Assembly (NCBI RefSeq): GCF_000219535.2 | Contig: NZ_CP007806.1 | Coordinates: 2,762,501 to 2,826,500 of the forward strand | Length of the DNA stretch: 64,000 nt | Origin: Brevibacillus laterosporus LMG 15441 | GTDB lineage: Bacteria; Bacillota; Bacilli; Brevibacillales; Brevibacillaceae | Reading direction: 5' to 3' | Shown here: positions 1 to 25,548 of the stretch, one piece after another | How positions within the stretch are numbered: the first letter of the stretch is position 1 | Layout: the number at the start of each line of letters is the position of its first letter | Notes under the pieces: generated by a model | The model's input: the letters and a program-made list of their open reading frames with translations, nothing else | Database searches by the model: none | Told to the model about the DNA's origin: nothing | Program-made: the position numbers and the translations under genes

Positions 1-722
1 ATACTTGTATCTCTACTATTTTCTGTTTTCGAAAAATAGGATAACATTTGATAAAAATAGGTGTTAAGTTTGGAGTCCAATTTTTTAAACCCGGTCAAGT
101 CCGAGCAAGTTAATAATGAAGATAACCTAATAAAAGTAAGTAACAAGTCATTTCTTATGATTTTAATTTCTAAATCACTTATTTTACTATTAAGGTAGTT
201 AATTTTTGTATTAATTTCACACTTACATTTTTCAATTATCATATTTCTAAAATCTACTTCTCTCCCACTAATAAAATTTAAAATATCATTGAAATTATTC
301 TCTCTATCATAAATTATTGTGCATTTCAACAGATCTTGTATTAACATTTCTGGAAGCCAATATCCTATCGCCCATTCTCTATGTTCCCCGATGGGGTTAT
401 TTTCTTTAAATAAACTATAAACCTTATTACTAAACTCTTTATTAGTATACAGAGCTAAATTAATATCTTTATTGTTATCTTCAAATGTAATCCTAATGCT
501 GTCATCAATAGTTGAAATATTGTATTCACTGAATATATTTTTTAGTTTCCCAAAAACCTCCTCATGTTCGTGAAGTATTAATAAATCATAATCATTAAAA
601 CTATCACTGATATTGATAGAACCAACTAATGCAATACCATTAATATATTCTTGTTGTTTTAATACATGCATTATATTTAAGGTAATCTGATTCAATCGAT
701 TCTTAATTTTATTACTTATCAT
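1..722 (-). CDS. Nucleotidyltransferase-fold protein, 3' end outside window
   Basis: The minus frame is open from an ATG at 722 to the window edge, about 240 residues without a stop. An AGGAGG-like site (GGGAGGATATT) precedes the ATG. The N-terminal part reads ALVGS, then DSFNDYDLLIL about 12 residues on, which is the GS...DxD signature of the polymerase-beta/MNT nucleotidyltransferase fold. Family members transfer AMP or another nucleotide to a small molecule, protein or RNA. A later WAIGYWLPEMLIQDLL segment suggests the helical domain common in antibiotic nucleotidyltransferases. It starts 23 bp after the MFS exporter gene on the same strand, so it is probably the distal gene of the natural-product operon, perhaps tailoring or self-protection. 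The substrate cannot be told from sequence. The gene is incomplete here. Confidence 0.7.
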   Translation of the reverse strand, partial: MISNKIKNRLNQITLNIMHVLKQQEYINGIALVGSINISDSFNDYDLLILHEHEEVFGKLKNIFSEYNISTIDDSIRITFEDNNKDINLALYTNKEFSNKVYSLFKENNPIGEHREWAIGYWLPEMLIQDLLKCTIIYDRENNFNDILNFISGREVDFRNMIIEKCKCEINTKINYLNSKISDLEIKIIRNDLLLTFIRLSSLLTCSDLTGFKKLDSKLNTYFYQMLSYFSKTENSRDTS

Positions 723-744
723 AATATCCTCCCTTATCAGTTTT

Positions 745-1998
745 TTATTTGTATTGAGATTCCTTTGATCTTATTGCAATATCTATAGATTTATAAACTA
801 ACATATAAAATATTAAACCTATTAAGACCATTGAAATTCCAAGACTTATATATATAACTCTTATATTTATTAAATCAGTTAGTAGGCCCGATACACCAAT
901 TGATAGTGGTAAAGATATTTGTGAAATAATAAAAAGTACAGAGTTAACTCTTCCCAAAAAATTTATGGGAGTCATTTGTTGAACAAGAGTGTTATAACTA
1001 ACGTTAAACAATATGATCATAGCAATATTTATAAAATTACTAATAGATGCCATGACAACATTAGTTGAGAACCCTAAAGAGATTATACCTATACCTAAAA
1101 AACTAATATTGATTAGGAAAATAACTGAAAAAGATTTAACATGATTTTTTATTTTGGGAACTAAAAACCCCATCATAAGTCCACCTATAGAACCGCATGC
1201 ATAAATAATACCAATTTCCATAGATGAGGCATTAAAACTATCTTGTAAAAAATATACTAATAAAGCTAATATTGGTCCTAGAGCGATATTAATAAAAAAA
1301 CTACCTAATGCTACCTTTATTAAAAAGTTATTTTCTTTAAGAAAAACAAAACCTAATTTTATTGAATGAAAAATTGAATCTTTTGAGGAAGCAACTGACT
1401 CATTTAATTTAGGGATTGACATAAAACCTGCCAATACTATTAATATGAAGAAAGATGCTACATCAATCAAAAGGACATCTTGGACACCAAAGATTCCAAT
1501 TAAACTGCCAGCTATTACAGGCCCTATCAAACGGCTAGCAGAATTAATCAACCCAAATTGAGCATTTAAGGCGGCATAATATTTCTTATTAAAAAGCATT
1601 GGAAGTATAACGCCTTCAGCACTCAAGTAAAAACTACTTAATAACGCAACAAAAGCTGCCAATATACAAATTGTTAAGGTATTTAATAAATTATGTATGC
1701 TTAATAAGTAAATTAATCCTACAATTCCTCCCTGTAGTAGTGCTGAAATTATTAATATTACTTTTCTATTTGTACGGTCAACTATTACCCCCGCCCAAAG
1801 TGAACTTAACAGTTTGGCTAAATACTCACACGCGACAACTAAAGATAAAGCAAAACCTGAGCCTGTTAATTTAAGAGTAAGGAGCGGTAAACCTAGCAAA
1901 TAAAGTTGATCTCCCACACTTGAGAAAAACTTGCCTAGAAATAAAAGTCTAAAATTCTTATCTTTCCAAATAACCTTTAAATAATTTTCATTTTCCAT
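745..1998 (-). CDS. MFS drug/metabolite exporter
   Basis: 417 residues with about 12 hydrophobic segments. The early GKFFSSVGDQLYLLGLPLL helix and the WAGVIVDRTNRKVILI loop after TM2 are the MFS motif-A region (DRxxRK) of the MFS_3/macrolide-efflux type of proton-driven exporter. It probably sits in the cytoplasmic membrane and exports the product of the operon. Its ATG overlaps the 3' end of the upstream condensation-type gene by 11 bp, so the two are translationally coupled. The ribosome site lies inside the upstream gene and is weak. Exporter function is secure from the fold; the cargo is inferred only from neighbours. Confidence 0.85.
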   Translation of the reverse strand: MENENYLKVIWKDKNFRLLFLGKFFSSVGDQLYLLGLPLLTLKLTGSGFALSLVVACEYLAKLLSSLWAGVIVDRTNRKVILIISALLQGGIVGLIYLLSIHNLLNTLTICILAAFVALLSSFYLSAEGVILPMLFNKKYYAALNAQFGLINSASRLIGPVIAGSLIGIFGVQDVLLIDVASFFILIVLAGFMSIPKLNESVASSKDSIFHSIKLGFVFLKENNFLIKVALGSFFINIALGPILALLVYFLQDSFNASSMEIGIIYACGSIGGLMMGFLVPKIKNHVKSFSVIFLINISFLGIGIISLGFSTNVVMASISNFINIAMIILFNVSYNTLVQQMTPINFLGRVNSVLFIISQISLPLSIGVSGLLTDLINIRVIYISLGISMVLIGLIFYMLVYKSIDIAIRSKESQYK

Positions 1999-3232
1999 AC
2001 TTTTTTACCATATACATATTTTTGTCGTTAGCATTTATTTCGTCTATTAGTTTTTCAGCTTCTTCACGTATAATCACTTCAAAGCTTTCTTTCCTATCTG
2101 TTAGTTTATCTGAAAACAAAAAAGATACATCAAAATTTGTAAATGAAGAGTGACATAACACTTTAATACTTAAAAAATGTTTTTTATCTCTTGGCAATAT
2201 TTTTTTATATTCTATTTGCTCATCACCATTTTTAGATTTACCATTAACAACAAGAACAATAGGTTCCATATTTTGAATAGAAGATGCTGAGACTTTTTCA
2301 TTCTCTAGAAAATTGGCATATTCTTTAGCATTCCTGTAAGGGTTATTCTTATAAAACCTAAATTCTTCTAACTTATCATCATTATTAGAAGATCTGTTTT
2401 TAACCAACATTATCTCGTCATGGTAATCACCAAAATCCCGAGCATAAATCACTCCGTCAAAAGTTCTTCCTCCCACTAATAAACAAAGTGGAATATTTAG
2501 GTACTCAGGGAAAAACCTAAATAAAGAATTATAAACAACTAGATACCAAAATTCTTCTATTGTTAAGTACCTTTGTTTTAATAACCTTTTGGTGGAATAC
2601 GTAAAGGAAAAACTTTTATTATTTATTACTTTATGTTCTTTATATATTTCGTCCTTTATATCGGAATACTTAGAGAACCTTTGATAATTACTAGCATCCA
2701 AACTATTAATATATGTAATATAGTGATTTATTGCTTTTTTAGTCCTAGTTGGACCATGTAATAAATTATCTTTAAAATTATATCCTCCATCAAAAATTAT
2801 GTGGTTAAATATCCCGACAAAGTAAATTTTTTCATCTTTTATTATAAATGCCATATTATATAAAAGATGATTAGTAATTTCTCGTGATTTTAAATCTAGA
2901 GATAGATTTAAAATCAGATCATCTAAAGAGTCCGATTTATCAAGTGTATACACTGGTATAGGTATGTTTTCGTTATATTCGTATATTTCCATCATTACTA
3001 AAGTAGGGTTTTCTTTGTTTAATGTGCATCGCAGCAATTCTTCCTGTTTGATTATCTCTTTCATGTTTTTAACTAATAGATTTACATCAACCTTTTCAAA
3101 ACTTACAATACAAGGCACTAACCATTCTTTTATATTTTTATATTCTAAATACTTGCGCTGTATAGGAAAAATTCGTCTTGTAAATTTTTTTTGATTAATT
3201 ATAAAGGTATCAAAGTTACTTTGTTGATTCAT
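1988..3232 (-). CDS. Stand-alone condensation-domain-like acyl/aminoacyl transferase
   Basis: 414 residues; ATG preceded by GGAGGGGG. Near residues 63-71 QEELLRCTL resembles the C1 region of NRPS condensation domains. Residues 143-149 read NHIIFDG, fitting the catalytic HxxxDG motif (His144, Asp148, Gly149) of the CoA-dependent acyltransferase/condensation superfamily. The family joins an acyl or aminoacyl group held on a carrier protein to an amine or alcohol acceptor. There is no adenylation or carrier domain in the same chain, so a partner must present the substrate; the free ACP and amino acid:carrier ligase three genes upstream are obvious partners. The first His of the canonical HHxxxDG is Asn, which is tolerated in some family members. 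Exact chemistry is inference. Confidence 0.7.
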   Translation of the reverse strand: MNQQSNFDTFIINQKKFTRRIFPIQRKYLEYKNIKEWLVPCIVSFEKVDVNLLVKNMKEIIKQEELLRCTLNKENPTLVMMEIYEYNENIPIPVYTLDKSDSLDDLILNLSLDLKSREITNHLLYNMAFIIKDEKIYFVGIFNHIIFDGGYNFKDNLLHGPTRTKKAINHYITYINSLDASNYQRFSKYSDIKDEIYKEHKVINNKSFSFTYSTKRLLKQRYLTIEEFWYLVVYNSLFRFFPEYLNIPLCLLVGGRTFDGVIYARDFGDYHDEIMLVKNRSSNNDDKLEEFRFYKNNPYRNAKEYANFLENEKVSASSIQNMEPIVLVVNGKSKNGDEQIEYKKILPRDKKHFLSIKVLCHSSFTNFDVSFLFSDKLTDRKESFEVIIREEAEKLIDEINANDKNMYMVKKYGK

Positions 3233-3255
3233 TTTCCCCCTCCTTTTACTATTTT

Positions 3256-4488
3256 TTATTTATCAACCTTTAGGTTTAAACCGAAATTGGTATCCACATA
3301 ATGTAACAATTGATCTAAATCATCATAATAACCAATTAGAAGACACAGTTTATTCCCTGAATTGAAAGTTTTAGGACCAATATATTCATTTTCTTTAGTA
3401 ATTTGAAGTATATCTACCCCAGAAATATTTTTTAGCGAATTAATTTTCTCTAACCCCTGGATCCCCTTAACTCGTCCATAATTCTCATAGCCTACATCAT
3501 AATAGAAAGTTAATTTCTGATTCTTTTGTTGGAGTAATTTTTTGTAATTCGAAATATAATTTTCCTCTCCTAATAGTATCGATAAATATAAATGAAAAAT
3601 GTCAACGTTAAATTGTTTTTTAAATAAGCTGTAATTAGTTGTATGTCCGCTAGGTCTGAAGGCAGCTTCTATTAAACTAAAATTCCCATTATTATGTTTA
3701 ATCTCTACATGCGTCGCACCATTCCTCATACCTATCGTATGAACTGACTTGTTAGCAATATCTATAAGCTTGTCATTTAAATCTTTATTTATATGAGGCG
3801 GTATATAGTACAAGGCATCATGAAAAAAAGGCGGATTAGTTCCGTATTTCCCCATCACAAATGAAGCAACCGGTTCACCCTTATACCAAAATGTATCTAC
3901 GCAAAACTCATCACCATTAAAATATTCTTCAATGATAGTACCTCTAAGTGTTTGTTCATGATTAGACGCTTTTTCCCACATTTTTATTTTTAGATATTGT
4001 TCTTTCATTTCTTGTGGATTATTAATCAGCTTAACCCCTGTACTACCATAACTTGATTTTGGTTTTATTATGCAAGGATATTGTAATTCTTCTATATCAG
4101 GTGAAGTTAGATATAAATAATTACTAGTGGGTAATCCTTCTTGAATCCATTTGTCTTTCATAAGAGATTTATCTCTAAGAACATTTAAGTCATCAAATTG
4201 ATTATCATAGTAACCAGTACATTTTTTCAGTTTTTCCGTTACAACTACATGTTTTTCACAAGCTGTAAATAATGCATCTAATCTAGTTTCCATAGATAGA
4301 ATGTAATCCACAAGTTTTTGAAAATCTGTTTCTATAAAAATATCTAAATTGATATAATTAATGTCGTCTGATGGGGAAGGAGTTAATTCTTTAGATACTA
4401 TATAAATCTGATAATTATATTGTTGTTTAAGTGAAATTAGCTCCTTAATAAAAAAGGGAATTGGTTCAATAACCATAAATTTTTTCAT
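3256..4488 (-). CDS. ATP-grasp ligase
   Basis: 410 residues; GAGGAG site 8 bases before ATG. An N-terminal pre-ATP-grasp domain (1-105) is followed by CIIKPKSSYGSTGV near 139-152, the glycine-rich ATP-binding loop with its lysine. Further on come EEYFNGDEFCVDTF and SLIEAAFRPSGHT, which match the metal- and ATP-binding E...E/N...R region of the carboxylate-amine ligase branch (D-Ala-D-Ala ligase/biotin carboxylase superfamily). Such enzymes activate a carboxylate as an acyl-phosphate and couple it to an amine or thiol. In butirosin biosynthesis an ATP-grasp enzyme (BtrJ) ligates glutamate onto a carrier protein, a possible precedent for this neighbourhood. It overlaps the upstream ligase gene by 23 bp. 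Its substrate is unknown. Confidence 0.88.
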   Translation of the reverse strand: MKKFMVIEPIPFFIKELISLKQQYNYQIYIVSKELTPSPSDDINYINLDIFIETDFQKLVDYILSMETRLDALFTACEKHVVVTEKLKKCTGYYDNQFDDLNVLRDKSLMKDKWIQEGLPTSNYLYLTSPDIEELQYPCIIKPKSSYGSTGVKLINNPQEMKEQYLKIKMWEKASNHEQTLRGTIIEEYFNGDEFCVDTFWYKGEPVASFVMGKYGTNPPFFHDALYYIPPHINKDLNDKLIDIANKSVHTIGMRNGATHVEIKHNNGNFSLIEAAFRPSGHTTNYSLFKKQFNVDIFHLYLSILLGEENYISNYKKLLQQKNQKLTFYYDVGYENYGRVKGIQGLEKINSLKNISGVDILQITKENEYIGPKTFNSGNKLCLLIGYYDDLDQLLHYVDTNFGLNLKVDK

Positions 4489-5464
4489 CTTTTATCTCCT
4501 CTAAAATTTCACTAATTCTGTTTATTCCAAAACCAACACACATTGTTTGTATAAAGGTTTTATTATTATTTTGCATTAAAAACTTACGAGAAAAATAAGA
4601 ACCATGAAAATTTATTGAAGTCACGGAAATATATTTGTCTTCACTTTTGGAATATACCTCCAACTCTAGTTTAGACTTATTTAATATTTGATATAGTACA
4701 ACTTCAGGGTTATCGCTCATAAAAGTATCATTAGCTATTTTTATTCTAAATTTCTTGTTTAAGTTTTGACCAATACACCAAAATAGATAAATTATTTTTT
4801 CCCTAACTTTAAATAGTTCTGCTTCATTTCCGTAGAATACTAATTCAGTCATTAAAAATTTCGATAATCTAAATTTATTATAGAATTCTTCCTTCCTATA
4901 GCATTCACCAGTTATTATCTGGGTTGAAAAGCCAGTAATAATTTGTTCTTTATAACAATGATGACAGAGCGCAAAAGTTTTATACTCTTCGCTAGTTCCA
5001 CTAGTTCCTCTTACTACACTTTTATTTTTATCTAATCCCAATTGTTTTGCTGATTGAATATTAATATTATTAGGTGCTTCCTTTACTCGTTCTAAATCAA
5101 TATCAAAGATATCAGATAGTAGTTCGATCAAATCTTGGTTAATATCATTAATGCTACATTTTTTTTCTATATACTTTTGGATCAAATTTCTTACAGGTTC
5201 TCTAATCTCTACTATATCTAATTCACTTATTTTTGATGAGTTTAATATTAATTTTTCTACATTAAAAGAATTGATCGAACTCTTCTTCCATATTTTTTCA
5301 AAAGCACTGATTTCTTTGAATATATTAACTAATGATTTATCTTCTGATGAATAAACTTTTTGATTTAATAGCTTAATCTTTATATTTGGATTCTTAATTT
5401 GAAAGTATTCATATAAAGTTTCTTGTAATTCTTTAGGAAATTGTGATATTTCTACATTATTCAT
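4466..5464 (-). CDS. aaRS-like amino acid:carrier-protein ligase
   Basis: About 332 residues from the ATG at 5464, chosen because GAGGAATG lies 8 bases upstream; an in-frame ATG five codons earlier is possible. Around 186-212 it reads GECYRKEE...MTELVFYGN, closely matching the G-x-C-F/Y-R-x-E and R-E-F-V-x-x-G blocks of the SerRS-like amino acid:[carrier protein] ligases. Near the C-terminus CVGFGINR matches their motif-3 analogue (CVGFGxxR). Cys167 or Cys170, Glu207 and the Cys of CVGFG are the likely Zn2+ ligands that select a small amino acid in this family. Known members charge Gly or Ala onto a phosphopantetheine arm instead of tRNA. The gene lies directly after the carrier-protein gene with 8 bp overlap, the arrangement expected for an enzyme/substrate pair. 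Amino-acid specificity is not predictable here. Confidence 0.85.
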   Translation of the reverse strand: MNNVEISQFPKELQETLYEYFQIKNPNIKIKLLNQKVYSSEDKSLVNIFKEISAFEKIWKKSSINSFNVEKLILNSSKISELDIVEIREPVRNLIQKYIEKKCSINDINQDLIELLSDIFDIDLERVKEAPNNINIQSAKQLGLDKNKSVVRGTSGTSEEYKTFALCHHCYKEQIITGFSTQIITGECYRKEEFYNKFRLSKFLMTELVFYGNEAELFKVREKIIYLFWCIGQNLNKKFRIKIANDTFMSDNPEVVLYQILNKSKLELEVYSKSEDKYISVTSINFHGSYFSRKFLMQNNNKTFIQTMCVGFGINRISEILEEIKDEKIYGY

Positions 5465-5702
5465 TTTTACATTCCTCAATTAAAAAAAGTTCTATATCAT
5501 GTAAGCTATTAATTTCATTTAATTTTTCTTCAGACAAATTGTATTTTGTTTCAAGCTCTACAAGAATTCCCATATAAGAAAGTGAATCTATTCCTGTAGA
5601 AAAAATACTCCAATCCTTCCAATTATCATAATTTTCTTTTATCTCCAAGAATAATTCTTCTGATACATGTTCCTTTAATACCATTTCAAATTCAAAAAAC
5701 AT
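5457..5702 (-). CDS. Stand-alone acyl/aminoacyl carrier protein
   Basis: 81 residues, strongly acidic and helical. The segment STGIDSLSYMGILVELE carries the D-S-L 4'-phosphopantetheine attachment motif with Ser40 as the modified residue. The rest fits a four-helix ACP/PCP fold. It would hold an amino acid as a thioester, loaded by the aaRS-like ligase whose start overlaps its 3' end. The PPTase at 7.0-7.7 kb is the natural candidate to install the arm. The upstream ribosome site is poor (GTGGGAT), so an internal ATG seven codons in is an alternative start. Confidence 0.9.
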   Translation of the reverse strand: MFFEFEMVLKEHVSEELFLEIKENYDNWKDWSIFSTGIDSLSYMGILVELETKYNLSEEKLNEINSLHDIELFLIEECKNE

Positions 5703-5736
5703 ATCTTATCCCACTTTCTCGCCATATTTAAAAAAG

Positions 5737-6054
5737 TTAACTTCCAAATCGTTTTAAAAGCTTATGCTTATGCTTGTTTATTAATTCATCTAAAGAAATA
5801 TTGTAATTATTAGCAATGATTATGACATTTGCTAATAAATCACCTAGTTCTTCATATAAATTTTCTTGTATTCTATGTCTATCATTAGGAATCGAATCTG
5901 GTAAATCTTTTCTGATCTCATAAAGTCTTATAGCCTGGGCCAATTCTCCAACTTCCTCAAATAAAAAACCTAATTTTTGAAAATTGGTAGTATCAGTCCA
6001 TCCTCTTCGGTTATAAAAATGAATAAGCCATTCCTCAAAATCCTTAATTTCCAT
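5737..6054 (-). CDS. MazG-like nucleotide pyrophosphohydrolase-family protein
   Basis: 105 residues; AGGAGGAG site upstream of ATG. It contains KLGFLFEEVGELAQAIR and later YEELGDLLANVIIIAN, giving the EExxE...ExxD metal-binding pattern of the all-alpha MazG/dUTPase-like NTP pyrophosphohydrolases. The fold and metal ligands look intact. Family members hydrolyse NTPs to NMP plus PPi, often non-canonical ones. Why it sits in a carrier-protein operon is unclear; it may remove an inhibitory nucleotide or pyrophosphate-releasing intermediate, or simply be co-transcribed. Spacing to its neighbours is 34-40 bp. Confidence 0.82.
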   Translation of the reverse strand: MEIKDFEEWLIHFYNRRGWTDTTNFQKLGFLFEEVGELAQAIRLYEIRKDLPDSIPNDRHRIQENLYEELGDLLANVIIIANNYNISLDELINKHKHKLLKRFGS

Positions 6055-6094
6055 TTTATTAATACTCCTCCTGAACCAATCATATAAAATATTT

Positions 6095-6757
6095 CTACCT
6101 TAAATATCTAAAAATATTATCGTTAGCTACTTTGTAAATTTTTTTACCTAGGAAATCGACAGAATTATTTGATACCCTAATTCCTGACGTGTCAGATAAA
6201 CAAAAAATAGTCTTAATCTGGTTCTCATTAAAGATTTGTATTAAATCTTTTATTTGTACATAACTATCTTTATCAAAATGTACATCAATACTAAAATCCA
6301 CTAAATTTAATCCTTCAAAAGTTATTATTCCCTTAGCTTCGTGAACTGATGTTAAGATTGCATTTTTACACATATTAATGGCTCCTGCACTTAGTCCTAT
6401 TACCACCCCCTTAAAATTTCTAATAGGTTCTATCAGGTTATTTTCTTTTAGAAATTTATATTGGCATAATGTATCCCCCCCCATCAAAAATATAACATCA
6501 GCATCATTGATAAAGTTCTCCATTAATGCAGTTTCCATATTTTTATGTAAAATAGTTACATATTTGAAATTTATTTCATTAATTTCAAATAACCTAATTA
6601 TTTCACTAGCATATTTTTTTGAAACTAAAATATTTTCAGGAGATGTAGGAATAAATACAATTCTCTCCCTGATAACTAAATCTTTTTTCAAATAGCTAAT
6701 TAGTTCTTTATCGAAATCTTCATTATAATTTAATCTACTTAAAAAATATCTAATCAT
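6095..6757 (-). CDS. Peptidase E-like (family S51) hydrolase
   Basis: About 220 residues. FLMGGDT and the nucleophile-elbow GVVIGLSAGAINM (Gly-x-Ser-Ala-Gly) are hallmarks of S51 peptidases (dipeptidase E, cyanophycinase); DVHFDKD near residue 165 is the probable catalytic His region. Classical members cleave N-terminal Asp dipeptides. In this operon it could trim an aspartyl/peptidyl intermediate or act in self-resistance; that is inference. The ATG at 6757 is preferred because GGTG lies upstream of it; a GTG at 6772 in frame is the alternative. Confidence 0.8.
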   Translation of the reverse strand: MIRYFLSRLNYNEDFDKELISYLKKDLVIRERIVFIPTSPENILVSKKYASEIIRLFEINEINFKYVTILHKNMETALMENFINDADVIFLMGGDTLCQYKFLKENNLIEPIRNFKGVVIGLSAGAINMCKNAILTSVHEAKGIITFEGLNLVDFSIDVHFDKDSYVQIKDLIQIFNENQIKTIFCLSDTSGIRVSNNSVDFLGKKIYKVANDNIFRYLR

Positions 6758-6994
6758 TACAATTATCTGCACCTTTTTGTCAAAATTAACTTTTCAATCA
6801 TAATGTTTTTTCGTTTAAAACTCTACCATAAATAGGAAAATATTGCAATGTTTTTTTCATTCCTCTTAAACATTTGTTTGCTAAGGCCAACCAATAAATT
6901 TGAATCATATTCTTTAACACTGGATTACCCTCTATCATTGTTAAAGTAGAACAAATTAACATTAGAAAATAAATTATTTTTTGAATAATCCCTT

Positions 6995-7671
6995 CTATAA
7001 GGAAGAGAATTCGACGATTTCCAACTTATCAGGAAAACTATCATCTCTTGCACATGCAGTTATTACGTAATCAGATTCAAAAGTATAATGTTTGAAGAAA
7101 ACTAAGGAATTGATATATGTTTGCCTTACACTAAATACTCCTTCACATTTACTGCAATTTGAGTTTAATGGTATAGCCAATCCCCTGCCAATCATCTTTA
7201 CAAAACCTTCCTTTTTAGTCCATAACTGATAGTACTCATATAACCGCTCTATTTTCTTTTTATTATTTATTGCACGGACTTCTTCAACCGTGAATAATCG
7301 TTCGAAAATTTGAATATCAACTGGCCGAATTTTTTCAATGTCTACTCCTACTTCTTGCTTGTGAGTAATACAAACAACCCATTTACCCGAGTGTGAAACA
7401 TTAAAAAAAGTCCTTTAGGTTTGAGTAAGTAAAGGCTTCCCAAATGAATTTTATACAAAAGAGATATCCTTATTTTCATATCAAATTTGTTACAGATTAT
7501 AAATCTTATTAGCAGGTCTCCAATTAAAGTGCTATATTGGTCATATATTCTTTTGTATTTTTCGATTTTATGCCGCTTTTCTTCTAAAACTATTCGTAAC
7601 AATTGCATAAAAAGTTGGGATTCAATATGTTGAGGAATTCGTACTGCATAGATATCAACCATTTTTTCCAC
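6995..7671 (-). pseudogene. Sfp-type 4'-phosphopantetheinyl transferase, frameshifted
   Basis: Two reading frames join into one PPTase. The first (7671 to about 7405) gives the N-terminal region, including the YSTLIGDLLIRF block. The second gives NVSHSGKWVVCITHK, VGVDIEKI and LWTKKEGFVKMIGRGL, the SHSG..., GVDIE Mg-binding and W-x-KEA/G-x-x-K motifs of the Sfp family. They are out of phase by one base at a run of seven As (plus strand 7403-7409); eight would restore G-L-F-F-N-V-S-H. All motifs are otherwise conserved, so the break is recent, a sequencing error, or slippage. Its role would be converting the apo carrier protein at 5.5 kb to the holo form. A TATAAT-like box lies near 7697 on the minus strand, about 25 bases before the ATG. 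Confidence 0.85.
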
Positions 7672-7762
7672 CTAAAATACAACTTTTTCAATTCAATTAT
7701 ACTAAGCTATAATTGTCATATTTTTTCGCTTTCTGCTAATTCAATAGATTTAAATATTCTTA

Positions 7763-7903
7763 TTATTCGATATTTTTTTGTGAGTAGGGGTGATACCAGC
7801 GTAGCTGACAGCACTCTTTAATGAATGCTCCCTTTACACCGTCAGCAGCTACCTTCTCCCAAACGATCGTTCCTTGATGGTACGACATGTCGATAATTTT
7901 CAT
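7763..7903 (-). pseudogene. N-terminal fragment of GH25 endolysin
   Basis: A minus-strand reading frame of 46 codons from an ATG at 7903 begins MKIIDMSYHQGTIVWEKV, continuing with ADGVKGAFIKE. This closely follows the GH25 lysozyme N-terminus (M-K-G-I-D-V-S-x-H-Q-G-x-I-D-W-x-x-V...GVxFAFIKA). The catalytic domain is lost after about 45 residues. It is a phage-endolysin remnant and the first of a series of mobile-element relics. The Asp of the catalytic DVS motif appears as D-M-S. Confidence 0.6.
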
Positions 7904-8300
7904 GTTGTTTTTATTGCCTGCTTGCAACACTGATCAGTCCACCGTTTATTTGTTGTCTGTTTGCAAAACAGGTATATAATCTTTGCGATTCACCTTTCCC
8001 TTTCAATACTTCAACGACCCGCTTGATCTACCACCTTAGTCGGTCGCTGTACTTCCATTTCCTTTTCCCCTTTAATGATAGTGGCCTACTTCATTATCAC
8101 CATACACAGGCACCCTTTCAAAATTTTACACACTTGATTCAACTCTAAAATAGTATAGTTCAAAGAAACAAATGTATATTATTAGCTTGATACAGATACA
8201 TCAGAACGATATAGATGCCGATCCGGTGTATCTGAATTCAATTAAAAACACGCTAACCTTGGCTGTTTTATACATTCAGAAAAGAAAGAAAGATGTAGGT
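7904..8300. other. Degraded non-coding stretch
   Basis: No intact gene. Short minus-strand pieces such as VNRKDYIPVLQTDN interrupted by stops suggest decayed phage-type coding sequence upstream of the GH25 fragment. I could not assign a family. Confidence 0.4.
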
Positions 8301-8989
8301 ATGCCAGCAAATGTTTATAGTATGTTTTATGTAAAACAATCTCCATAGCATGGTCTTGGGAAACAAGTAGAGCAAGCATTTTCTTCCTAAGAAGTCTTAA
8401 AGGAGGCTGGTTTAGATTTTGGACTATCGTTCAACGTTCCATTCAAACAAACAACCAGTTAGAGATTCCTGGCTACAAGGCAAACATTCATGGTTCCGAC
8501 AATCGGGGGCTTGTAGTTTGCCAAAATACCTTGAACCTTGCCCTTAGTACTGCAAAGAGAATATGGGGAACCATTCATACTGGAGATATCAAGTCCAAAC
8601 TGGAGAAAGCAAAGAGGACGTTACTTATGGCTGAATCTTATATGGACCATCTACGAGTCGAGTCAGACCGATTAAATCAAATTAAACTTCTAGATCGTAA
8701 GGTCATGGAATACATCGAGCTCCTTCTTCCCTTGCCTGACAACGCCTCCATAACTCAAGAAAAAAATAACCGGCTGTTGCGAGCAGATATGCAACATAGA
8801 TATTTCGATTCTCCAGATCTTATTGATGTCGGTAAAAATGCATTTCGCTTTATCAATGCCGTTTCTGATTTTGCCACTCATGCAAAACCGCTGCGAGAAA
8901 CAGCATCTTACAAAGAAAACCTGTTTCAAAAAATGGAAGGAAATCCACTCATTGATAAAGCTTATGAAATCATTGTAGCCTCGGCATAA
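8301..8989 (+). pseudogene. DUF932 phage/plasmid-like protein, internally deleted
   Basis: The N-terminal part begins MPANVYSMFYVKQSP and after a stop continues HGLGKQVEQA, then EVLKEAGLDF after another stop: the start of DUF932 proteins. A frame change leads to EIPGYKANIHGSDNR, followed at once by VVCQNTLNLALSTAKRIW and the C-terminal 150 residues, open from 8531. In the family about 100 residues separate those two blocks, so there is an internal deletion as well as two nonsense codons and a frameshift. DUF932 genes usually lie beside radC and yqaJ genes in phages and integrative elements, which fits the next genes. Its biochemical role is not well established. Confidence 0.7.
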
Positions 8990-9088
8990 TCCCATTTACA
9001 GGATTGCCAAGGCATTTTTATTTCCTTTTTGTAAAAATCAATTAGATGTATTGGAGGGTTTCCAGATTGATTCTTACAGCAAACGGAA

Positions 9089-9700
9089 TTGAAATCCTTA
9101 CTGACAGATTCTTTACGTGAAAAGCCAGGCTGCTACATTATTGAAGAGATATTTACTATATTCCCAACAACAACAGAACTACTCCAGGCAACAGTAGAAG
9201 AACTAGTGAGCATCAAGGGAATTGGTACAGCCAAAGCCCGTCAAATTATATCTGCCCTAAGATTAGCTCACACGCTCTCTATTCCTTCTCACTGTTCATA
9301 CACCATCCGCAAACCGGAAGATGTATACAAACCGTTATCATCTGAATTAAGTCATCTACAAAAAGAACATTTTGTTTGCATTTTGCTTAACACAAAAAAT
9401 TACGTAGTTGGCAAAGAAACGATCTCCATTGGATCACTGAATGCCAGCATTGTACATCCAAGAGAGGGGTTTCGCCCAGCTATTAAGCGCGGCTGCGCCT
9501 CTGTTCACAACCACCCTAGCGGCAATCCCAATCCCAATCCCAATCCCAATAAAGAGGATATCGACATCACAAAAAGATTAGTCCAGGCAGGAAACATCAT
9601 TGGAATTGATGTCCTCGATCATATTATCATTGGACACAGCCGTTACTTTAGTCTGAAAGAGCAAGGGCTGCTACTTCAGGATATGGAGGTAAACGTATGA
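9089..9700 (+). CDS. radC: RadC-family JAB/MPN protein with NP-repeat expansion
   Basis: About 203 residues. A helix-hairpin-helix (VSIKGIGTAKARQI, near 47-60) is followed by an MPN/JAB domain with ASVHNHPSG, the H-x-H metal site, and a downstream Asp. The usual HNHPSGxPxPSxxD is stretched to an Asn-Pro repeat because the hexamer aatccc is repeated about four times. Despite its name, RadC has no proven repair role; the mobile-element paralogues are common next to DUF932. The start is uncertain: the TTG at 9089 has a weak site, while a good GGAGGG precedes a TTG in another frame 24 bp upstream that reads ILTANGIEILT, hinting at a frameshift near the 5' end. Confidence 0.75.
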   Translation: MKSLLTDSLREKPGCYIIEEIFTIFPTTTELLQATVEELVSIKGIGTAKARQIISALRLAHTLSIPSHCSYTIRKPEDVYKPLSSELSHLQKEHFVCILLNTKNYVVGKETISIGSLNASIVHPREGFRPAIKRGCASVHNHPSGNPNPNPNPNKEDIDITKRLVQAGNIIGIDVLDHIIIGHSRYFSLKEQGLLLQDMEVNV

Positions 9701-10608
9701 CTGCTACTCTTCAAGCAAATGCACTGGTTGAAACTGATTCGTTATCGGCGCGATGGCATCGGAGGTTCTGACTTGGCAGCCATTTGCAATTTGTCTAAAT
9801 GGAAGCAGCCCATTCATGTATATCTCGAAAAAACAGGTGAATATCCGCCTGAAAAAACGAATGAAGCTGGCTGCCGAATGGGGAACCAGATTAGAACCTT
9901 TAATCGCTGAGAAGTTTGCGAATAATCATCCTGAATATGCCGTTCTTGAACAAAAAGTGATTTATGCTCATCCCCAACACAATTGGGCTTTAGGAAATCT
10001 TGACCACATGATCATCAGTCCGAATCGTGGGCCCGGTATTCTTGAAATCAAAACGGCAAGCGAATATTTGCGTAATGAATGGGATGACGGAAATATCCCT
10101 GACTATTATTACGTCCAGTTGCAATGGTACTTCTTTGTCACCGGGCTAGATTGGGGTTACTTTACTACTTTGATCGGAGGGAACAAGTATCGGGAATATG
10201 AAGTCATGCGTGATGAGGAAATGATTAACCAATTGCTTCGGCTTGCGAGTGATTGTTGGTATTATAATGTGCTTGCTCGTGAGTCTCCTCCTGTTGACGG
10301 TTCTGATGCTTCCACTACCCTATTAAGCCGTATGTATCCTAAAGCGACTAATAAGTTGAATATTCAGTTGAAGCAAACGGACATTTTTGAGAAGTATTTC
10401 GAGAAAAAACAGCAAATCAAACATCTTGAAGAAGTGGCTTCTGAAATAGAGAATCAGATGAAATCTCTGCTGGGGGAGCATGAAATCGGGGTAGCTGGAT
10501 CATACAAAGTAAAATGGGAAAACAGATGGTGAACTAGTGTTGACAGTAAAAAATTGAAGGAAGAGTATCCTTCCATTTATCAGGCGTGTGTCAAAAATAC
10601 TCAAAAAG
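9697..10608 (+). pseudogene. YqaJ-like viral recombinase/exonuclease, frameshifted
   Basis: The start ATG overlaps the radC stop (ATGA). The reading passes through three frames: an N-terminal MTATLQANALVETDSLSAR, then RRDGIGGSDLAAICNLSKW (typical YqaJ start), then KLAAEWGTRLEPLIAEKF, GNLDHMI and ILEIKTAS with VQLQWYFFVTG. The G-x-x-D...E-x-K nuclease core of the lambda-exonuclease fold is recognisable. A TGA after KVKWENRW interrupts a C-terminus that would continue TSVDSKKLKEEYPSIYQACVK. With two frameshifts and one nonsense codon it is inactive. Intact relatives are 5'-3' exonucleases of phage recombination systems. Confidence 0.78.
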
Positions 10609-10936
10609 CGGACTCTTCGTTCATTTCTCTTTTTACATTCTATTTCTATAGTACCATTTGGGGATAGTGTACCTTTTGAAACATGGCTGTCACTATAAAA
10701 ACTGACACATTCATGCTTGCACTTCCCCCATTTATGTCTGATGGTAACAACATTTATCAAACCTCACTCTTATTAGATATGGAATGTAGTATGAAGATAG
10801 TCACTACTACAACTACTGATGGGAATGAAAGGAATGTGTAATATCAAGTTGAGGTAGCTATAATGAAATAGGTTGTAAGTGAATTTAATATAATGAAATC
10901 CCTTTGTTAAAAATACTTTTTCCCAGTTGTAAGTAA
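10609..10936. other. Intergenic stretch without a recognisable gene
   Basis: No convincing ORF with a ribosome site on either strand. It separates the YqaJ relic from a convergent membrane-protein gene. Confidence 0.4.
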
Positions 10937-11380
10937 TTATGATATTAATTTATTTTTTAAATAATTATAGAGATCATCGAACCTTATTATTAAGGCATAA
11001 ATTAATGCTAATACTACAATTCCCATTGATGAAATAGAAATTCCAGAATACATATTTTCTAAAAAAGATACTGAGAAGTAGTAAAGTACGAATGATACTA
11101 CAGTTTCTAAAAGTCTTAATTTTATGCCATTTGAAACCAACTTTGTATTGATCATAGAAGTGATAAAGCTGGATAAAAAAGATGGTATTATCAAGAGATA
11201 CACAATTGTCGAAAAAGCAATCGCGGAAAAAAAGGATTCAATTCTAATTTCAAATATCAAAGACATGAAATATAAAAATAGAGTATGGATTAAGGTGCCA
11301 GCCATGACACCACATACGACTATTCCAAGAATGTAAAAGAAAACAGAAGCATTTAACCAAGGGTACCTCTTCATTTTCAT
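10937..11380 (-). CDS. Four-TM membrane protein, possible immunity partner
   Basis: About 147 residues from the M-K-M-K-R-Y start; AAAGGTGAG lies just upstream, which is why I prefer the 11380/11374 ATG pair to the ORF's first ATG at 11407. Four hydrophobic segments are visible (SVFFYILGIVVCGVMAG; AIAFSTIVYLLIIPSF; VVSFVLYYFSVSF; MGIVVLALIYALII), with a basic C-terminal tail. There is no enzyme motif. It sits directly downstream of a gene for a secreted protein, separated by a long perfect hairpin, the arrangement of many toxin/immunity or bacteriocin/immunity pairs. Function is inferred from context only. Confidence 0.55.
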   Translation of the reverse strand: MKMKRYPWLNASVFFYILGIVVCGVMAGTLIHTLFLYFMSLIFEIRIESFFSAIAFSTIVYLLIIPSFLSSFITSMINTKLVSNGIKLRLLETVVSFVLYYFSVSFLENMYSGISISSMGIVVLALIYALIIRFDDLYNYLKNKLIS

Positions 11381-11391
11381 CTCACCTTTCT

Positions 11392-11449
11392 TCATATAAT
11401 TAATCATAACCTAGACCAATTTTGATCTAGGTTATGATTAATTATATGA
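11392..11449. repeat. Perfect 24-bp inverted repeat with 10-base loop
   Basis: Left arm 11392-11415 and right arm 11426-11449 are exact reverse complements, each starting tcatataattaatcataac on its own strand. The loop is ccaattttga. The repeat overlaps the last codons of the secreted-protein gene and the leader of the membrane-protein gene. No T-run follows on either strand, so it is not a standard intrinsic terminator. An mRNA-stabilising or processing hairpin between the two genes is plausible. Confidence 0.85.
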
Positions 11450-11987
11450 ACCAGAAAATGATATCAGTAATATCCTTTGCTACATCCTCTGGCACGTTAA
11501 ATCTCTTTAACGCTTTTATCAAAGCCTTTTTGGTACCCGTTTCCAGCATTTCGCAAGCATCTGCGATTTCTCTTGAGTATTTCCGTATTAAATCTATAGT
11601 CTTCTCAAGTACCCATCCACCAGCTCTTACGATTTTACCGAAACCTTTAATGGCTTTAAGAGTAGCGCTTACAACTTTTTGCTCTTTGACGATACCTTTA
11701 GGAGTTCCCATAGGTATAATTTTTTTGTTCTTCAAGTCTAAATAAACATTTGCTTCAAGTAGGACGAGTCTAAAGTTTACTGGGTCATAAACTGTCTTAC
11801 CAGAGTCATCAACATACCATCCTGTTTCATGGTCAAAATGCATATTATATTAGCTCGGATCGAAATATTTTGTATCTTTCACAACATTTGTATTAGCAGA
11901 AGAAGCTGTGACAACAGAAGTAAATGTCAAGGATAAGCACGTAACTGAAAGTAGAGACAATATCCCCTTTTTTAGCTTTAAATTCAA
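11442..11987 (-). pseudogene. Secreted protein (bacteriocin/toxin candidate) with in-frame TAA
   Basis: From a TTG at 11987 (GGTGAT upstream) the frame encodes a signal peptide: MNLKLKKG, a hydrophobic core ILSLLSVTCLSLTFTSVV, and cleavage after TASSA. The mature part ANTNVVKDTKYFDPS ends at a TAA, but the same frame goes on with YNMHFDHETGWYVDDSG for 133 more residues. That C-terminal part contains VSATLKAIKGFGKIVRAGGW and a basic amphipathic region ending near DITDIIFWFI. Frame preservation on both sides argues for a single gene of about 180 codons interrupted by one nonsense mutation. The family is unknown to me; the adjacent four-TM protein suggests antimicrobial or toxin function. Confidence 0.6.
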
Positions 11988-11989
11988 AC

Positions 11990-12319
11990 CATATCACCAT
12001 CCAAATTTTTTGGTTTATTGTTTTGGTTTGTTATTCTTGTTGATCAAAACTTTTCTGGCTTCATTCTTAAGTTAAATTCTCCGTTCTTCCCATTCTTGCT
12101 TCTTATTTTCTTGTAAGAGCTTTTTCTTTTCTGATCCCCACAAATTCATAAATAACACTCCAGGCTTAGATGCTTCATAAATAGTTGAAAAACGGCTGTT
12201 TCAAAAGGATTTTATGGTTTTTCGACAAATATTCATGAAGCATTTTTATCTAACTTCTACATTAAATCCCCTGAGAAATTCTGTAAATCGTAATCGTTTT
12301 GTGCTAAGATAAATGTGTG
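11990..12319. other. Intergenic, AT-rich, no gene seen
   Basis: Contains the upstream region of the minus-strand secreted-protein gene. I see no complete ORF with a ribosome site. Confidence 0.35.
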
Positions 12320-23639: not shown

Positions 23640-24092
23640 AATCAATCAATTAATAATTTTTAGCAGCGTATTTATCTTGTTTGACACTATTTATCAAGTC
23701 AGCTTCACACAAACCAAGAAAAGCATTCTTTGGACAACCTAATCTTTGTGCTCAAGTTCCCTTCATCAAAAACTTCTGATAGCAACTGTATTCCATGCAG
23801 GAAGTATATCTAACTTCTGAATATCATGGATTAATTGAACAGTCTTGATAGTAACATCTCGTATTTGTTAATAATCAAACACCTTCTCATAGAATAGATT
23901 TATACTCTTATTATCAATGTTTCGAAAATGATCTTTTAAACAACCATATAATCTAGTTATATTTACCTATGTATACAAACATTTCTACTTTTCTTCAATT
24001 TTACTTTCACAAATATGAAGTATCATTCGATGGAGAGTCGATTCCTCTTCTAATGGCTTTCTTGGTATAAGTATGGATTTGAGTCAATATCT
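23640..24092. other. RT upstream region, no intact gene
   Basis: Only scraps of degraded minus-strand coding sequence are visible (for example IHDIQKLDILPAWNT and LVEVFDEGNLS-like pieces in broken frames). A non-coding RNA partner of the RT could lie here, but I cannot show one. Confidence 0.3.
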
Positions 24093-24128
24093 TGGACACA
24101 ATTAAGTTAAGTACTAGGATACTTTTCT

Positions 24129-24392
24129 TTGAAAGATACAAGCAAGGATTTCACGCAATATGTTAAGCAACTTCACATTGTTCACTCATGTAACAGAAAG
24201 GGCTGTCCCTATGACAATGCCTGTATCGAATCGTTCCATGCCATTCTGAAGAAAGAAGAAGTAAACCATGTGACTTACATTGATTATAAATCCGCAAAGC
24301 TTGCGCTTTTTACATATATAGAAGGTTGGTATAACCGAACCCGAATACATGGTAGTCTAGGATACAAAACACCTCAAGAAGTGGGCACCTAA
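24129..24392 (+). pseudogene. IS3 orfB C-terminal segment, inverted
   Basis: Reads TSKDFTQYVKQLHIVHSCNR, then KGCPYDNACIESFHAILKKE and WYNRTRIHGSLGYKTPQEVG: the third part of the rve integrase core with its catalytic Glu (ACIESFHAILKKE) and the conserved C-terminal motif. It belongs directly after the ...LVLHTDLG of the minus-strand orfB but faces the other way. Confidence 0.8.
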
Positions 24393-24920
24393 ATCAGTAT
24401 GAAGTACCAAATCCCTTGCGGGTTTTTGAGTATCATAGGCGTTTTTTAATGCATGCAAAACTACATCCACTGTCATATGACGTGAAAAAGAGTATCCTAT
24501 GATTTTTTTAGAATGTAGATCAAGAACGGATGCCAAATAACACCAACCATCCTGAAGAGTATGAATATACGTAATATCTGCTACCCATTTCTCGTTACTA
24601 GATGTTGTTTTAAAATCTTACTGAAGTAGATTAGGTCTCTCCATAACCCTGTCTTTGCTTCCTTGTGGGCGGAATTTCTTACGCGTAATGGATCGAATAT
24701 CGGCCTTAATCATTAATCGTTGCACTTTTTTCTGGCTAATAGAAAAGCCTTCTCTATTCAAAAGATAGTGAATCTTGAGAGCACCATAACGTCCCTTGCT
24801 ATCCTGATAAATTTCAATCATTCTCTTTGTAATCAGTTGGTTCTCTTTATGACGTGGAGAGTGCTCTTTCTTTTGGAATTGATAGTATGTACTTCTAGAA
24901 AGATTGAGTACCTCATACAT
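24393..24920 (-). pseudogene. IS3 orfB transposase, 5' part
   Basis: Starts MYEVLNLSRSTYYQFQKKEH, then the HTH_21 region (IYQDSKGRYGALKIHYLLNR, GFSISQKKVQRLMIKADIRS). A TAA after MERPNLLQ interrupts the frame, which continues DFKTTSSNEKWVADITYIHT and SVLDLHSKKIIGYSFS with two catalytic Asp residues (ADITYI; LHTDLG). It ends abruptly at the inversion breakpoint. Confidence 0.8.
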
Positions 24921-24979
24921 AGTCTGTACAGAGTACTTTTCTCTGTTTGCTGCAATAAATTGATTCAGTTCTGCAATTT

Positions 24980-25255
24980 CTACTTTTTCGCGAATATGGC
25001 CATAGCCTTTTTTAGAATTTCATTTTCCTGTTTCAATCGAAGCATTTCCTTCTGCATAGTAGCAATCTCTTTAGGTGCAATAGATTGTCCTGCTTCTCCG
25101 AGAAGAGTAAATTCTTTGATCCATTTGTAAATAGTGACTTCTGAAATACCATATTCGCTAGATAATTCCTTTACAGAGTAACCAGAGTGATAAAGATCTA
25201 CCACTGTTCTTTTAAAATTTTCATTGTATCTCTCGTTCGTTTTTTTGTGTTCCAT
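24980..25255 (-). CDS. IS3 orfA helix-turn-helix protein
   Basis: 91 residues starting MEHKKTNERYNENFKRTVVD. HTH_Tnp_1 domain: LYHSGYSVKELSSEYGISEV then TIYKWIKEFT, followed by a leucine-zipper segment (EMLRLKQENEILKKAMAIFA). Its end carries the AxxFAKK sequence where IS3 elements shift frame into orfB. Intact by itself, but its partner is broken. Confidence 0.85.
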   Translation of the reverse strand: MEHKKTNERYNENFKRTVVDLYHSGYSVKELSSEYGISEVTIYKWIKEFTLLGEAGQSIAPKEIATMQKEMLRLKQENEILKKAMAIFAKK

Positions 25256-25548
25256 CCGGACTCATCTCCTCTTGTTTTCATTGTAAGGACTTAACTAAGA
25301 GGTGTCCATGAAACTATACTAACTCCACAAGTTTTCGATAACTTTTTACTGAAGTTGATATAAAAAGACGTATATTTATTATGGAATCTTCCTATTATCT
25401 TTTTAATACCAATAATTACCGATAATTATGTTGTTTTGAAAGCAGTTTCCTAAATGCTTACGAAAGAATTCAAAAAGAAGTCGATAAAGGAAAGCTTGGA
25501 TTTAAACGCAAGTATGTAAGATGTTAAAATCAGCCTCGAATTGCGGAC

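Follow-up and report, generated by a model that had tools for sequence, protein, structure and literature searches.

The window analyzed here was a 64,000-nucleotide stretch of the Brevibacillus laterosporus LMG 15441 chromosome (contig NZ_CP007806.1, positions 2,762,501 to 2,826,500; genome of 5,153,859 bases in three contigs), and coordinates refer to this window unless prefixed L002 (same chromosome) or L024 (a locus of genome G395, see below). Window positions 1 to 7671 harbored, on the minus strand, a compact run of biosynthetic genes that was cut by the window edge at base 1. The cluster had eleven genes in total (Table 1): a Sfp-type phosphopantetheinyl transferase (PPTase) gene, which was split, and ten genes that were all open, encoding an S51 peptidase, a MazG-like protein, a free-standing acyl carrier protein (ACP), a seryl-tRNA synthetase (SerRS)-like amino acid:carrier-protein ligase, an ATP-grasp ligase, a stand-alone condensation-like protein, a predicted major facilitator superfamily (MFS) exporter, a nucleotidyltransferase-like (NTase-like) protein, an aldo/keto reductase (AKR), and a divergent radical S-adenosylmethionine (rSAM) protein. 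The first-pass annotation of this DNA had confined the cluster to positions 1 to 7671; every gene that it named lay there on the minus strand, but its PPTase gene turned out to be split over two frames, and the cluster ran on to the left past base 1 into the AKR and rSAM genes.

Table 1. Genes of the carrier-protein cluster and the direct repeat flanking it
Feature	Coordinates	Strand	Basis or remark
PPTase, N-terminal piece	7348-7671	-	AASDHPPT_N PF22624, E 1.5e-4, 22.4 bits, below cut-off 27
PPTase, C-terminal piece, other frame	about 7003-7402	-	ACPS PF01648, 52.9 bits, cut-off 25
S51 peptidase, PepE/cyanophycinase type	6095-6772	-	PF03575, 79.3 bits, cut-off 23.9
MazG-like pyrophosphohydrolase	5737-6054	-	PF03819, 40.2 bits, cut-off 22
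Free-standing ACP	5457-5702	-	PF00550, 18.5 bits, below cut-off 20.8
SerRS-like amino acid:carrier-protein ligase	4466-5479	-	PDB 3mey/4h2w matches; PF00587, 24.6 bits, below cut-off 29.3
ATP-grasp ligase, L-amino acid ligase type	3256-4488	-	PF13535, 95.9 bits, cut-off 27
Stand-alone condensation-like protein	1988-3232	-	PF00668, 16 bits, below cut-off 30.6
MFS exporter (predicted)	745-1998	-	MFS_1, 92.4 bits, cut-off 33.4
NTase-like protein	3-722	-	GS...DYD motif by eye; 240/258 residues inside window
NTase-like gene, complete	L002:17446-18222	-	
AKR	L002:16725-17456	-	next gene left of window
rSAM protein, divergent	L002:15468-16724	-	left of AKR, same strand
Degraded prophage-like segment, right copy	8513-10447	.	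direct repeat across cluster

The ligase and ATP-grasp genes overlapped by 23 bases, as did the ACP and ligase genes if the listed TTG start of the ligase was used (an ATG five codons further could also be used); the NTase-like and AKR genes overlapped by 11 bases, and the AKR gene abutted the rSAM gene. A crude scan of positions 1 to 8200 gave no intrinsic terminator (shuffles: mean 2.0, standard deviation 1.4), the promoter-like sites (44 vs. 53.3 in shuffles) carried no information, and positions 1 to 12000 had no Rfam match at the gathering threshold. Scans of the ten cluster proteins against Pfam and NCBIfam matched no non-ribosomal peptide synthetase (NRPS), no AMP-binding adenylation family, and no BtrH-type acyltransferase family.

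The condensation-like protein was used as the query against 398 genomes of the class, and six matched; four of these were dropped, as the matches were partial and lay in frames of 1375-1578 amino acids (aa) taken as NRPS-like, and matches over most of the length were left only in the genome itself and in G395 (43%, E 2.3e-112), which belonged to a different family of the same class. The G395 locus L024 kept eight of the genes together, all in one direction, with the following identities: rSAM 74% (72-74%, the best conserved protein), AKR 52%, NTase-like 46%, condensation-like 42% (42-43%), ATP-grasp 42%, ACP 40%, S51 39%, and ligase 37%. Because these eight genes recurred together in a second genome, the gene set is not a chance assembly. 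Synteny in another genome was thus found, and the gene list first put forward was borne out as a conserved set for the ligase, ACP, ATP-grasp, condensation-like, S51, and NTase-like genes, but not for the MazG and PPTase genes, neither of which was seen in the L024 open reading frame (ORF) list; none of the ten L024 proteins compared corresponded to MazG. The overlap of the NTase-like and AKR genes was present in both genomes. L024 also displayed a different MFS gene (no blastp match to the window MFS at E 1e-3) and a further ATP-grasp gene, which ran in the opposite direction.

The cluster is rare in the genomes searched. In the family of G395, one of 23 genomes matched, namely G395 itself, and among phylum samples (which overlapped, were small parts of larger groups, and presumably had not drawn G395) the rSAM profile matched 1/398 genomes and the NTase-like profile 1/348, being the B. 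laterosporus genome each time. On plasmids, neither the condensation-like nor the NTase-like protein had a match, and positions 1 to 12000 had no close DNA match; viral contigs gave no relative (rSAM: 0 matches in 50,697 phage records), and scans of genome contigs with single proteins, which reach close relatives only, gave none.

The ligase displayed a class II SerRS-like catalytic core: a single-sequence search matched PDB 3mey at E 2.6e-10 (residues 189-323) and 4h2w at E 4e-10, and a profile of seven aligned ligases gave E 2.1e-74 against the solved structure of an amino acid:ACP ligase. C172, E212, C314, R195, and R321 were invariant across the seven ligases and aligned with the solved chain; we take the Cys/Glu/Cys positions and the two arginines (those of motifs 2 and 3) to correspond to zinc and ATP binding in Bll0957. 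As judged by sequence alignment, the active-site residues on which a ligase function would depend, at the zinc-ligand and arginine positions alike, were therefore kept. The cluster ligase and the Bll0957-type ligases (3mey/4h2w) shared the SerRS-like class II core, the Cys/Glu/Cys zinc-ligand positions, the motif 2/3 arginines, and an adjoining ACP gene, but the former had a divergent N-terminal part and had ATP-grasp, condensation-like, rSAM, and AKR genes as neighbors. It was filed as a divergent relative rather than an equivalog of NCBIfam NF005479, an assignment made at the level of profile scores. Ligase relatives at E 1e-8 occurred in 12 of the 398 class genomes, full-length only for the cluster copies of B. 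laterosporus and G395; five of 39 genomes of its own family had a ligase relative, these being, besides the cluster ligase, partial matches at 27-31% identity. According to the portion of a review available (PMC9437257), carrier-protein ligases of the SerRS-like type add Ala, Gly, or Ser to carrier-bound phosphopantetheine.

The ATP-grasp enzyme carried an ATP-grasp domain (Table 1), and its profile, built with the L024 copy, matched BL00235 (3vot) at E 2.5e-23 and BacD at E 1.6e-12 to 3.7e-12. All three shared the ATP-grasp domain with an aligned Glu pair and Arg, but the cluster gene overlapped a carrier-protein ligase gene, whereas BL00235 and BacD join free amino acids. The sequence comparison was also applied to 13 other ligase loci, composed of ten of the eleven chromosomal loci (all but that of G301) and three of 22 plasmid records. 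With profiles of the cluster proteins, ATP-grasp relatives were found in 5/13 of these loci vs. 1/20 control stretches, a soft contrast in that the plasmid loci were hand-chosen, the L010 listing already showed a neighboring ddl gene, and the controls came from three genomes, were not matched to the lengths of the plasmid loci, and entered the comparison without a significance test. The positive loci were plasmid loci L010, L011, and L012 (3/3) and chromosomal loci L043 and L045 (2/10). The ATP-grasp gene overlapped the ligase gene in both clusters and directly followed it in L010 and L045; in L010, from an Apilactobacillus kunkeei plasmid, the ACP, ligase, and ATP-grasp genes overlapped in the same order as in the cluster. 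The plasmid loci of A. kunkeei (L010) and Priestia (L011 and L012) thus shared with the cluster neighboring SerRS-like ligase, ACP, and ATP-grasp genes, but no relatives of the condensation-like, S51, rSAM, AKR, or NTase-like proteins were found there, nor at E 1e-3 in any of the 13 loci.

The ACP displayed the motif GIDSL with Ser40, and GIDSL was common to the G395 copy. The PPTase of the cluster may be dead; as its gene is split, the ACP would need another PPTase, and two other open PPTase genes were found elsewhere in the genome. The condensation-like protein had the motif H144xxxD148G149; compared with HHxxxDG, HxxxDG was present in both its own and the L024 copy with the first His replaced by Asn, and the H and DG aligned with those of a bacitracin synthase condensation domain at E 0.0091.

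The remaining proteins were examined by profile and motif. The S51 peptidase had both the PF03575 profile and the GxSAG motif, and Ser128 (GxSAGA) and His165, presumably functional residues, were common to the L024 copy. In the AKR, D41, Y46, K68, and H113 were kept in both copies; in the rSAM protein, the CX3CX2C motif (C75, C79, and C82) and the C-terminal cysteines C322, C344, C349, and C357 were kept likewise, and we take the four AKR residues and the CX3CX2C motif to have the roles usual in their families. Membership of the rSAM superfamily was assigned from this motif together with weak matches to several rSAM families (Rv2578c family E 7e-4, NrdG2 E 0.002-0.005, and spore photoproduct lyase E 0.01-0.1). 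The NTase-like protein had no significant family match, Polbeta PF18765 at E 0.38 being the sole listing, matched by both members. The MazG-like protein is probably accessory.

Distant rSAM relatives occurred on 26 plasmid records at <60% identity (22-25% in the rows listed). Four of these 26 loci were read: an AAA ATPase gene lay directly after the rSAM gene or one gene further on in 3/4, a 3'-5' exonuclease gene was present in 2/4, thymidylate synthase and nucleoside-diphosphate kinase genes in 1/4, and the fourth locus had murA and aldolase genes. In Rhizobium and Streptomyces plasmids (L028:7911-10215 and L029:6465-10440), the relatives stood beside 3'-5' exonuclease and AAA ATPase genes, in one case together with the thymidylate synthase and nucleoside-diphosphate kinase genes, gene sets that resemble a system for modifying nucleotides or DNA. 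With identities of about 25% or lower, the plasmid neighbors are only a hint of nucleotide-like rSAM substrates.

Taken together, the cluster can be read as a small NRPS-free pathway on a carrier protein, whose reactions, step order, and product are proposed from protein families, motifs, gene order, and precedent: (i) a PPTase from elsewhere in the genome would arm the free ACP; (ii) the ligase would adenylate a small amino acid, which to judge by its family would be Gly, Ala, or Ser, and load it onto the ACP thiol; (iii) the ATP-grasp enzyme would join a second amino acid, most likely at the amino group left free on the residue that the ACP carries; (iv) the condensation-like protein would hand the ACP-bound acyl group over to an acceptor amine or hydroxyl; (v) the NTase-like, AKR, and rSAM proteins would make or remodel the acceptor; (vi) the S51 peptidase would cleave off a terminal residue in a deprotection or maturation step; and (vii) the MFS protein would export the product. 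The order of loading, extension, transfer, and trimming was drawn from gene order and from the precedent of VinM and VinJ (see below). We put the seven steps as one reading at a probability of roughly 0.5. Its parts differ in strength: charging of the ACP by the ligase is probable; transfer by the condensation-like protein stands at even odds; and a protect-then-deprotect role of the ATP-grasp enzyme and the S51 peptidase is tentative and somewhat unlikely. The proposal made from the letters, an NRPS-free assembly line for a small peptide-like metabolite, was a fair reading, as the ten proteins included no NRPS but a ligase, an overlapping ACP, an ATP-grasp enzyme, and a lone condensation-like protein.

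Two described pathways bear on this logic. In vicenistatin biosynthesis, according to the available part of the source (PMC11284099), VinM couples L-Ala to an amino acid attached to a carrier protein, and this L-Ala is later taken off again by VinJ; the starter-unit pathway thus resembles the proposed one in that a second amino acid is added on a free ACP and later removed, but it uses AMP-type adenylation enzymes and a polyketide synthase, neither of which was matched by the ten cluster proteins scanned. The butirosin likeness, as far as the sources available on that pathway go, lies in a free ACP, an ATP-grasp ligase, and a possible protect-then-deprotect step, with BtrG/BtrH acylation. In the butirosin side-chain pathway, the work is divided among BtrI, BtrJ, BtrH, and BtrG. 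In the cluster, by contrast, a SerRS-like ligase would do the loading, a condensation-like protein would take the place of BtrH in the transfer, and an S51 peptidase that of BtrG in the possible deprotection. The butirosin parallel drawn in the first-pass annotation therefore stands for the logic but not for the enzymes, since no BtrH-type family was matched. Its further remark that it knew of no described cluster with this exact set agreed with our limited literature search, in which none was found and most subscription journals were outside the coverage. The cluster combines enzymes of known kinds in an arrangement that is rare and new.

As to the product, rSAM and AKR were the two best conserved genes, which suggests that it is not a plain peptide. 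The acknowledgements of a 2010 paper (PMC2922099) link the SerRS-like ligases examined at that time to a glycosidase and liposaccharide genes besides the ACP and appear to argue against a simple peptide-synthesis role; as far as that section goes, this calls for caution against assuming a peptide product. The boldest version of the pathway, in which it is complete, is dedicated to a SerRS-like carrier-protein ligase, and makes an aminoacylated nucleotide- or sugar-like antimicrobial by loading, protection, transfer, and deprotection, with a new rSAM subfamily building the acceptor and without NRPS, AMP-type adenylation, or BtrH-type transferase, is speculative and distinctly unlikely. Spergualin, a known B. 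laterosporus product, was considered and dropped, as no ketosynthase was matched in the cluster. The cluster is small enough to be reconstituted, so that the purpose of most SerRS-like carrier-protein ligases would become directly testable; if true, the pathway would in addition provide an unassigned rSAM group with a function.

Several observations weigh against the seven-step pathway. Profile scores fell short of the Pfam cut-offs for the ACP (PF00550, 18.5 vs. 20.8 bits), the condensation-like protein (PF00668, 16 and 19.5 bits, below 30.6), and the rSAM protein (PF04055, 16.7 vs. 29.5 bits; both copies at E 0.0087 or weaker), and the naming of the NTase-like protein goes back to the by-eye motif and the E 0.38 listing. 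For the ligase, the NF005479 equivalog cut-off was not reached (63.5 vs. 357 bits), identity to the five aligned ligases outside the two clusters was 20-24%, and the first 188 residues were not matched when the single sequence was searched against the PDB. Two single-sequence structure predictions (mean predicted local distance difference test scores of 34.0 and 33.5) were unusable. The split PPTase gene, the finding of the set in two genomes only, the softness of the 5/13 comparison and of its controls, and the local variation in GC content near the cluster (see below) belong on the same side.

Among the alternatives, the one that survives best is that the carrier-bound amino acid itself is tailored: rSAM and AKR would act on aminoacyl- or dipeptidyl-ACP, the condensation-like protein would only release the product, and there would be no separate acceptor of a nucleotide- or sugar-like kind. 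A precedent exists in vicenistatin, in which, in the part of the account available, VinL carries an amino acid while it undergoes decarboxylation (PMC11284099), and in G395 the rSAM gene immediately precedes the ACP gene. We nevertheless hold this to be unlikely: the NTase-like gene is kept, overlapping AKR in both genomes, which better fits a nucleotidylylated small molecule, and the nucleotide-type neighbors of the distant plasmid rSAM relatives point, if only as a hint, the same way.

A bacilysin-like logic, with the ATP-grasp enzyme making a free dipeptide and the ACP, ligase, and condensation-like protein forming a separate acyl-supplying branch, would account for the profile matches to BL00235 (E 2.5e-23) and BacD (E 1.6e-12). 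The overlap of the ATP-grasp and ligase genes in both clusters and their adjacency in L010 and L045 argue for a carrier-bound substrate as in the seven-step pathway, and we regard the bacilysin-like scheme as improbable.

The genomic context suggested horizontal transfer. GC content was 27.6% in positions 1 to 7700 vs. 37.4% in positions 12000 to 64000, but values for 1.5-kb stretches near the cluster lay between 0.295 and 0.414, which makes the contrast smaller than these averages imply; the L024 block had a GC content of 33% vs. 40 and 45% in its flanks. A degraded prophage-like segment, whose genes we take to be RadC-like and YqaJ-like, was repeated in direct orientation on the two sides of the cluster: positions 8513-9465 matched L002 11747-12701 at 93.9%, and positions 9909-10447 matched L002 12698-13235 at 91.3%. 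IS3-like transposase ORFs, named by eye, lay beside the cluster. From the GC contrast and the flanking direct repeats, the cluster was probably horizontally acquired. The same features, namely the direct repeats, the adjoining IS3-like ORFs, and the low GC, together with the split PPTase, would also suit a decaying, non-functional passenger of the degraded prophage-like region; this is very improbable, as the other ten genes were open, the motifs checked in the ligase, condensation-like, S51, ACP, AKR, and rSAM proteins were kept, two other PPTase genes were open, and eight genes were conserved elsewhere. A defense system was rejected as the primary interpretation, since 0/10 cluster proteins matched PADLOC at E 0.01.

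Further features were recorded around the two clusters. Copies of an IS3-like stretch at window positions 24474-25328 and L002 13406-14260 (855 bases, 97.8%) were mutually inverted, with shorter IS3-like pieces at 24072-24382, and five phage records matched the phage-like DNA at 33000-57000, though over no more than about 1%. Near both clusters lay ORFs that looked by eye like type I restriction specificity/modification genes (L002:10806-11663 and L024:14584-17299), and they may merely mark genomic islands.

Other ligase loci displayed their own gene sets. L010 is probably the pLPX plasmid of the bee symbiont A. kunkeei, as its locus tags bear PLPX; pLPX was named for an LPxTG surface protein, and the part of its description available (PMC9648514) does not mention the ligase cluster. 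In a Priestia megaterium plasmid (L012:2587-16410), SerRS-like ligase, holo-ACP synthase, ACP, acyl-CoA dehydrogenase, and ATP-grasp genes were accompanied by alanine permease and alanine racemase genes, with a D-Ala-D-Ala ligase gene further up. The B. laterosporus genome harbored a second SerRS-like ligase gene with a small carrier-like ORF (L013:2372-16555; C1 about 579372-593555), neighbored by ketosynthase, luciferase-like monooxygenase, and thiamine diphosphate enzyme genes and by ORFs that looked by eye like genes for an ABC transporter, an aldehyde dehydrogenase, and an AMP ligase; this set looks like a separate biosynthetic cluster. Ligases of 373 aa were also found in G029 and G030.

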